A DNA stretch of 64,000 nucleotides from Xenorhabdus mauleonii (GTDB lineage Bacteria > Pseudomonadota > Gammaproteobacteria > Enterobacterales > Enterobacteriaceae): contig NZ_FORG01000003.1 of NCBI RefSeq assembly GCF_900113945.1, positions 248,001-312,000 of the forward strand, read 5' to 3'. The notes below the pieces were generated by a model. That model was given only the letters and a program-made list of their open reading frames with translations. It was not told where the DNA came from and did no database searches. Of the stretch, positions 46,527 to 48,234 are shown piece after piece. Position numbers and translations under genes: made by a program. Each line of letters begins with the position of its first letter. Positions within the stretch are counted from its first letter, which is position 1.

Positions 46527-46925
46527 TTACTCTTCAGAATCCCCAGCTTCATCTGCATCATCGATCAGATCTTCTTCAGAGACCAGATCACGGCTGCGGC
46601 GTTCGTCTTTAGCCTTAACCATTGGTGATGCTTCAGTTACTGCGTGTTTAACGCGCATAACCATGCTGCGGATAACGGCGTCGTTGAAGCGGAAGTTAGT
46701 TTCCAGCTCATCAATCGCTTCTTGTGGCGCTTCAACGTTCAGCAGAACGTAGTGAGCCTTGTGCAGTTTGTTGATTGGGTAAGCCAGTTGACGACGACCC
46801 CAGTCTTCCAGACGATGAATCTGACCTTGCGCGTTAGTGATAGTCGCACTGTAACGCTCGATCATGCCCGGAACCTGTTCGCTTTGGTCAGGATGGACCA
46901 TAAAAACGATTTCGTAATGACGCAT
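46527..46925 (-). CDS. rpsF: 30S ribosomal protein S6
   Basis: 132 residues from the ATG at 46925 ([18 protein letters not shown]); the ATG two codons upstream sits too close to AAGGAG. The acidic C-terminal tail ([16 protein letters not shown]) is where RimK adds glutamates in E. coli. First gene of the operon with priB, rpsR and rplI; its leader carries a hairpin that may bind S6-S18. Confidence 0.97.
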
Positions 46926-46959
46926 TAGCATTGCTCCTTACGGATTATTCAGCCTCCTG

Positions 46960-47014
46960 TCAGGGTCAGCCGTGGCCCATGGAGGCAAGGAACGTGTTTA
47001 GTACGGCTGAAAAA
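46960..47014 (-). promoter_or_regulatory. rpsF leader hairpin, candidate S6:S18 autoregulatory site
   Basis: Perfect 8-bp arms TCAGCCGT (46966-46973) and ACGGCTGA (47003-47010) enclose GGCCCATGGAGGC-type sequence. It lies about 40 bases upstream of the rpsF start. Bacterial rpsF leaders carry a hairpin that mimics the 16S site and binds S6-S18; location and CCG content fit. Confidence 0.55.
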
Positions 47015-47117
47015 TTGACGCGTAACTATACCCACACAATATAAAAAACTCAAGGTATGGGTACATAAAAAACGCGTTTATTATTCTTTCGGTTGTCTTG
47101 TAATGACTTTAGAACGC

Positions 47118-47373
47118 CTTATGATGGCTATACCCGCCGCCTTTCAAGTGGCTTCTGCTTGGCTTTGTTATTGCTTTGGCTACGTCCACGCCCCCAATCG
47201 CCATTGTCATAAACATACGGTTATTATGTTTGGGGATGGGTGACAAACCCCCGCTTCTCACCGGAAACCGGTCTTTAGCCGGGCGAATTCGTTCCCGACG
47301 AATTCGCCATGTTCTTGCCGCCGCGATACAACGTAAACCCTATTAGGGATTAACATAGGGTATAGCGCATAAG
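47118..47373. mobile_element. MITE-like palindromic-ended element (about 256 bp)
   Basis: The ends are inverted repeats GCTATACCC (47127-47135) and GGGTATAGC (47358-47366). They extend outward to CTTATG (47118-47123) and CATAAG (47368-47373) with one bulge. Inside are perfect hairpins: ACCGG-AAA-CCGGT, GGCGAATTCGT/ACGAATTCGCC (47282-47308), and AAACATA/TATGTTT. There is no coding frame. The right end lies two bases from the rlmB stop, so the element fills most of the rlmB-rpsF gap. The left end shares TATACCCGCCG with the repeat at 48171. Mobility is inferred. Confidence 0.55.
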
Positions 47374-47374
47374 T

Positions 47375-48112
47375 TTACTGAGCGCTTCTCTGGCGTACGA
47401 TCTCGAACAGGCATACCCCTGTTGCCACCGATACGTTCAAGGAAGAAACTGATCCCGCCATTGGAATGCTAATCAGTTCATCGCAATGGTCGCGTGTCAG
47501 ACGGCGCATGCCTTCACCTTCCGCTCCCATGACCAATGCCATCGGGCCGGTCAGTTTGCTTTCATATAACGCATGAGTCGCTTCGCCCGCCGTTCCGACA
47601 ATCCAAATATTGTGTTCCTGCAGTAAACGCAAGGTACGGGCAAGGTTCGTTACACGAATGAGGGGAACGCTTTCTGCGGCACCACAAGCCACTTTTTTGG
47701 CTGTTGCATTCAGTTGTGCCGAGCGATCACGGGGAACGATAACCGCATCAACACCTGCCGCATCCGCAGTACGCAGGCAAGCACCCAAGTTGTGTGGATC
47801 TGTGACACCATCCAGCACCAACAAAAACGGGCGTTCCAGTTGGGACAAAAAATCGGGCAGATCATTTTCCTGATACTGGCGCCCCGGTTTGACCCGCGCA
47901 ATAATGCCTTGGTGGACAGCGCCTTCGGTCTGGGTATCCAACCATTGGCGATTAGCCAGTTGTACCGAGATACCGATATTTTCCAATTCTTGCAGCAACG
48001 GGGTCAAACGGCGATCTTCCCGCCCTTTCAATACATAAACTTCCATGAACCGCTGTGGATCACTTTCTAATAAAGCTTTAACGGCATGGATACCGTAGAT
48101 AATTTCACTCAT
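47375..48112 (-). CDS. rlmB: 23S rRNA G2251 2'-O-methyltransferase RlmB
   Basis: 245 residues, E. coli 243. N-terminal substrate-binding domain (about 1-75) and SPOUT knot domain (about 90-245) with [28 protein letters not shown] and [16 protein letters not shown]. Follows rnr, as in E. coli nsrR-rnr-rlmB. Confidence 0.97.
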
Positions 48113-48170: not shown

Positions 48171-48231
48171 TATACCCGCCGTTTTTCAAGTTGCAACCTT
48201 GTCGGATGCACCTTGAAATCCGTTAAGTATA
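48171..48231. repeat. short palindromic intergenic repeat
   Basis: A 61-bp imperfect palindrome in the rnr-rlmB gap. The left arm TATACCCGCCG-TTTTTCAAG-TTGCA pairs with TGCACCTTGAAATCCG-TATA at the right. It resembles the TATACCCGTC..TTCAAGTTGC family of enteric intergenic palindromes. The left arm is close to the end of the 47118 element. Confidence 0.65.
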
Positions 48232-48234
48232 TGG

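Follow-up and report, generated by a model that had tools for sequence, protein, structure and literature searches.

What is the hairpin-rich block that lies between rlmB and rpsF in Xenorhabdus mauleonii, a mobile palindromic element that came to rest beside these genes, or a structured RNA made from the rlmB transcript? The window analyzed here is a stretch of 64,000 nt from a draft genome of this species, and an earlier note on it had described the block as MITE-like, with limits at 47118-47373, and had left both of these origins standing. Judged from its sequence, the block is a long ERIC (also called IRU or RU-1), i.e. a new copy of an already named, ordinary mobile repeat. We put the probability at about 0.93 that it is a non-autonomous MITE of this family that was inserted at a TA ten bases past the rlmB stop codon, with duplication of the TA. 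The question raised by the MITE-like finding is in this way settled: the block is one more member of a named family, and an empty site and a likely mobilizer can be given for it.

Bounds and identity of the block

The element occupies 47129-47364 on the plus strand (236 bp), with limits drawn from alignment with the RU-1 consensus and with other copies in the genome; the plus strand is the one that reads in the direction of the RU-1 consensus given for E. coli in PMC2759123 (Table 1a). It begins with TATACCC (47129-47135) and ends with the inverted counterpart GGGTATA (47358-47364). Of the ERIC termini (TATACCC..TTTCAAG), the left one is complete in this copy, as the terminal inverted repeat TATACCCGCCGCCTTTCAAGTGGC (47129-47152, plus strand, from the family alignment), and the right one (47329-47364, minus strand, from alignment to other copies) retains its outer 7 bp, GGGTATA, and is degraded in its inner part, with about 13 nt extra. 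Between these ends lies an extra block of three hairpins, 69 nt long (47238-47306, plus strand, with alignment-based edges that are uncertain by 1-2 bases). The best single hairpin (47282-47308, plus strand) has 12 pairs, one of them G-T, around a loop of 3, and the earlier description of a block packed with perfect hairpins was in this respect overstated.

A structured block is indeed present between the two genes, within narrower limits than those first proposed. The element stops ten bases, rather than two, short of the stop codon of rlmB (47375-48112, minus strand). The sequences CTTATG and CATAAG, which had been taken for its ends, are not conserved across the aligned copies and belong to flanking or target DNA, the former lying in a stretch just outside the element (47117-47128). 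Together, the flanks at 47117-47128 and 47365-47372 are palindromic across the point of insertion (CTTATG..GC-TA-GC..CATAAG, read in the rlmB sense), and this palindrome is possibly a preferred insertion target. That the block is without coding sequence holds for ORFs of at least 60 aa, none of which was found between 46931 and 47375.

By aligning genome copies of the block we built a consensus of about 210 nt, with the ends TATACCC....TTTCAAGTTGC, which aligns end to end with the 127-bp ERIC (IRU, RU-1) consensus of E. coli and with a Salmonella copy (both from Table 1a of PMC2759123), the core being homologous to ERIC in the same order and orientation. Two features set the Xenorhabdus form apart from the 127-bp ERIC: GGGGAT is followed by a three-hairpin block of about 70 nt (69 nt in the window copy, 71 nt in an E. 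coli copy), and the central hairpin is longer by about 15 nt. The window copy adds to these about 16 nt in its left arm, besides the 13 nt or so in its degraded right arm. With 236 bp it departs from the usual ERIC length of about 127 bp. We treat length as a typical rather than a defining trait of the family, since elements of about 127 bp make up a size class in this genome too, Yersinia ERICs are given as 69-127 bp (PMC2267715), and E. coli has a 198-bp form with the same extra block.

Two other identities were weighed against this alignment. There is next to no chance that the element comes from the YPAL/RU-2 or RU-3 palindromic families: YPAL is comparable in size and structure (about 168 bp and palindromic, PMC2229807), but its termini are described there as having no TA motif, its printed sequence, compared by eye, has no TATACCC/TTTCAAG ends, and it is the ERIC consensus instead that aligns end to end. 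YPAL/RU-2 identity was rejected on the poor fit, by eye, of that printed 168-bp sequence. The long form could also be a separate transposon family that has only its IS630-type ends in common with ERIC and an unrelated inside, as the extra block of about 70 nt, the longer central hairpin and the 87.5% identity of the block between Xenorhabdus and E. coli might suggest. This too is very improbable, given that GGCTGCG..CTCACCCC..GGGGAT, and then GCCGCC, stand around the block as ERIC sequence in the right order and orientation, and that elements of graded sizes coexist in one genome. We accordingly speak of the element as a long ERIC in what follows.

Copies, empty site and candidate mobilizer

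Many further copies were found in the 5.12-Mb draft genome (94 contigs), both with the block itself and with the 210-nt consensus. When the block was searched by BLAST in the genome that it comes from, 47 places matched at E<=10, of which 20, itself included, were below 1e-4. For the consensus, 40 candidates out of 183 were scored, and at least 48 places matched at E<=0.001, some of them pieces of one copy; the window copy was absent from these 40 candidates, and the consensus does match it. The exact sequence TTTCAAGTTGC occurs at 89 genome sites, versus 1 for the reversed pattern, and the evidence for a repeat family lies far beyond chance. Identity between the window copy and its best genome matches is 71-78%.

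Pairing of ends was followed in 78 loci, i.e. the window and 77 stretches picked by exact TTTCAAGTTGC, a biased sample that gives no total copy count. An end-pair detector returned 73 inward-facing pairs, a few of them nested duplicates, versus 0 in the reversed sequences, and left 14 strong ends unpaired. Pair lengths were 57-66 (14 pairs), 86-104 (8), 118-142 (20), 178-228 (23) and elsewhere (8); the detector missed the long copy of the window, whose right end has decayed too far. By crude ORF calls, 65 of the 72 oriented elements overlap no called ORF. Conservation of the ends, which the earlier note had expected, was found for TATACCC...GGGTATA and not for the outer CTTATG.

A second, short ERIC derivative of 61 bp stands in the rlmB-rnr gap of the window (48171-48231, plus strand). 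In G173 (L143) this gap has a similar element at the corresponding position, and in G167 (L142) it has none. A sub-threshold Rfam match to the STnc70 sRNA falls on this short element (48173-48233, minus strand, 25.8 bits against a gathering threshold of 40), and STnc70 and ERIC-type ends may have a common ancestry.

The rlmB-rpsF gap was compared in 30 genomes of the genus, the window genome counted in; 40 loci from more distant genera gave no rpsF by motif and were left out. Genus-mates of the window genome have gaps identical to those of named Xenorhabdus (for instance L144, compared with L046 of X. beddingii), in keeping with the assignment of the window to this genus. The gap measures 449 nt in the window genome versus 131-217 nt in 27 of the 30, and the element is absent from these 27 because the gap is too short to contain one. 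G172 (L161) has a gap of 260 nt with a standard ERIC three bases past the rlmB stop codon, in the same orientation as in the window, and this is an independent insertion. The gap of G173 is unspanned; next to rlmB, this genome has the sequence found in X. szentirmaii L035. In L035 itself the rlmB-rpsF gap is 1589 nt long and holds a different insert, with whose sequence the G173 locus (L143) also starts.

The nearest relative by rlmB DNA is G167 (L142), at 90%, and its empty site reads CTCAGTAAATCATTTTC-TA-TTCATCACAAG; the corresponding sequence of the window is CTCAGTAAACTTATGCGC-TA[...]TA-GCCATCATAAG. On the single TA of L142, the two TA copies of the window (47129-47130 on the left and 47363-47364 on the right) would be a target-site duplication. 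The pattern is what insertion at TA with duplication of the TA, as in ERIC and IS630-type transposition, would give, and, since the flanks are only partly alike between the two species, this reading rests on an alignment of diverged sequence. With many copies, a single-TA empty site and conserved ends, the earlier proposal of a mobile palindromic, MITE-like element is borne out, and comparison among copies and among genomes shows both its multi-copy spread and, across these partly diverged flanks, its insertion at TA.

A candidate for the mobilizer is an IS630-type element of 1.1 kb in G152 (L173, L199), with the ends TATACCCGTCGTCATTGAAGATGC and TATACGCAATTAACTTGAAGATGC. In register with the Xenorhabdus ERIC ends, these match at 20/24 positions (left with left) and 18/24 (right with right). 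Without TATA the matches are 16/20 on the left and 14/20 on the right, versus 12/20 and 10/20 for the crossed pairs, and in 2 million random draws no 20-mer attained 16/20 to the left end, while the frequency of 14/20 to the right end was 3.2e-5. The window contains 310 24-mers that start with TATA, of which only the ERIC left ends at 47129 and 48171 reach at least 14/20 to the IS left end. Against the E. coli ERIC consensus, the left end of the IS matches the left end at 19/24, and its right and left ends each match the right end at 16/24, the right match being no better than the crossed one. Other IS630 copies bear variant ends. Few IS630 ends passed a strict inverted-repeat test, because the two ends of these elements differ, and direct reading of the ends resolved this.

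Transposases of the IS630 type (Pfam DDE_3) were found in 28 of the 30 Xenorhabdus genomes and in neither the window genome (G000) nor G171. All 5 candidates of the window genome were scored and gave 0 DDE_3 matches, in a draft of 94 contigs that may miss some; G167 has 121 DDE_3 candidates, 90 of them scored. Among the best 40 of 47 candidates, the window genome has one IS630 relic of 147 bp. A standard ERIC adjoins this relic (L203 1519-1787, i.e. G000:C31:26918-27186). Two palindromes of 93-94 bp also occur in the window genome: L277 428-521, with 21/24 matches to each of the IS630 ends, and L248 7-101, with 18/24 and 16/24. They are perhaps a second, IS-derived MITE.

In the history that we propose, the non-autonomous MITE entered the TA ten bases after the rlmB stop codon, with duplication of this TA, and an IS630/Tc1-type transposase would have moved the ERIC in trans, with its hairpin-rich inside carried along. 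The similar ends point to kinship between ERIC and IS630 and do not by themselves show that this transposase moves ERIC, a step that we nevertheless hold to be quite likely. The identity of 71-78% to the best matches and the degraded right end mark the window copy as old, and an old and degraded copy, in a draft with no IS630 transposase domain, is probably not mobile now.

Folding of the element and its possible effect on rlmB and rpsF

Taken by itself, the window copy folds better than shuffled sequences by a modest margin. For a single-stranded stretch of 301 nt, the z score is -1.57 for the minus strand, where 8 in 100 shuffles did equally well, and -2.75 for the plus strand, where 2 in 100 did. 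A general repeat finder, at the settings used, listed no inverted repeat inside the element, and the Rfam covariance models gave no match within 47129-47364 at E<=1. A known structured RNA was rejected as the identity of the element, the sub-threshold STnc70 match being only on the neighboring 61-bp element. The hairpins also fit a DNA palindrome.

For the comparison of copies, 32 loci were searched, of which L132, L137, L138 and L139 failed the length filter, and the partial copies L124, L125, L127, L135 and L140 were left out, giving 24 rows with the window included. A further alignment (A1, 20 rows) was also made without L130, L131, L134 and L136, and with L201 trimmed. Covariation was tested on 20 long copies and six helices named from one copy (L115). 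Paired cells came to 89.7% versus 86.8% in shuffles, pairs changed on both sides to 16 versus 7.1 (0 of 500 shuffles as high) and the covariation score to 0.158 versus 0.110, figures that lean towards the L115 structure because it was taken from one sequence and the copies are related. When partners were shifted by 1-3 columns, pairing fell to 28-46%. With unguided RNAalifold, the consensus of the 24 copies was weak (-16.2), for which their many gaps are the probable cause. As read from these alignments, the stems of the long class are kept by compensatory change among copies, which could come from selection acting on the fold or from mutation that corrects the palindrome.

In a transcript read from rlmB, a row of hairpins supplied by the ERIC would make up the 3' end. 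For Yersinia, ERICs are reported to alter how stable their carrier transcripts are (PMC2229807 and PMC10969869), which makes an effect on rlmB mRNA plausible; by this analogy the ERIC might alter rlmB mRNA decay, a suggestion that we regard as rather doubtful. On the rpsF side, the RpsF leader RNA is intact (46923-47007, minus strand, Rfam match to RF02893 at 98 bits), and a predicted promoter, TTGAGT-17-TATAGT, lies at 47025-47053 on the minus strand (a consensus match only, conserved in aligned relatives). Since both lie beyond the element and are conserved, rpsF expression is probably unaffected by the ERIC. Among ERICs at most 60 bp from a facing stop codon, 19 are oriented opposite to the gene versus 8 along it (p = 0.052, with crude ORF calls), a borderline bias near stop codons, and the window ERIC belongs to the commoner, opposite class.

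Several of these observations would also suit a functional cis-acting RNA, a processed 3' UTR or an attenuator, kept for ribosomal gene expression. Compensatory changes keep the hairpins across copies, the element begins 10 nt past the rlmB stop codon, two independent ERICs lie past rlmB in equal orientation, and Yersinia ERICs are reported (PMC2229807 and PMC10969869) to affect the stability of their carrier transcripts. Upkeep of hairpins, however, can reflect the repeat family rather than the rlmB-rpsF site, and ERIC copies occupy many other gaps. Furthermore, the gap has no room for the element in 27 of the 30 Xenorhabdus genomes, the element has no Rfam match, and the predicted rpsF promoter and leader lie beyond it. 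We consider such a role improbable and favor the reading of the block as an inserted long ERIC.

The long form beyond Xenorhabdus and its relation to known systems

The spread of the three-hairpin block was followed with a 79-nt query, consisting of the block and a few bases on each side. It matches 7 of 148 genomes of the order, strongly in 3 of 9 genomes of the same family (the window genome included) and more weakly in 4 other genomes. Among 5426 E. coli genomes the query matched 604, with a coverage of at least 80% in 600, while the full 210-nt consensus reached at least 80% coverage in 0 of the 5426, because the arms and the central hairpin differ. In a plasmid collection 60 records match, 5 of them over at least 80%. 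One E. coli and one Klebsiella copy were read in sequence, the latter (L202) in a 5.4-Mb record listed as a plasmid, and the block is present in both. The long form is thus an ERIC length class of several genera, extending beyond this strain. The long consensus matches 30 of 30 Xenorhabdus genomes at E<=0.001, some weakly, and the weak matches could be explained by standard ERICs alone. In the part of the ERIC literature that our search covered, no published description of a long ERIC class was recognized.

The long form might be the fuller and older ERIC, with the block as a functional module in transposition or RNA processing and the 127-bp and 61-bp ERICs as deletion products, an account that we offer very tentatively and think unlikely on present comparisons. 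In several copies, L131, L133, L134 and L136 among them, the third hairpin lacks its 3' arm only, lost between two short TTCCC repeats, as decay of a long ERIC would predict. With a length class that carries a three-hairpin block in Xenorhabdus, E. coli and Klebsiella and keeps its stems by compensatory change, it becomes possible to test where ERIC length variants came from and what they are used for.

With ERIC/IRU/RU-1 (MITEEc1 in ISfinder, 127 bp, Enterobacterales) the window element has in common the ends TATACCC..TTTCAAG, the core CTCACCCC..GGGGAT..GCCGCC, the TA duplication, a mostly intergenic location, many copies and the capacity to fold, and it differs in its length of 236 bp, the block of about 70 nt, the longer central hairpin and the extra bases in both arms. 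The rpnC-panC gap of E. coli O157:H7 (L201) contains a complete long ERIC of 198 bp, with a shorter central hairpin; the extra block lies at the corresponding position in it and shows 87.5% identity to the block consensus of Xenorhabdus. In the copy of the Klebsiella ndk-rlmN gap (L202) the block likewise has this position, between degraded ends. In Photorhabdus luminescens, a close host relative, the ERIC-like MITEPlu5 (123 bp, 552 complete copies, 47 strain indels) shares with the window element the TA target and IS630 'CCC-type'-like ends, and had already been linked to such ends (PMC6267812). The two are likened by description only, MITEPlu5 having a typical length of 123 bp, and the published likeness between ERIC-like and IS630 ends is now extended from Photorhabdus to Xenorhabdus. 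The RUP element of Streptococcus pneumoniae, with IS630-Spn1, is also a small repeat with IS630-like ends and a TA target, thought to be moved in trans (PMC2229807); it is 107 bp long, belongs to an unrelated host, and is likewise compared with the window element by description only.
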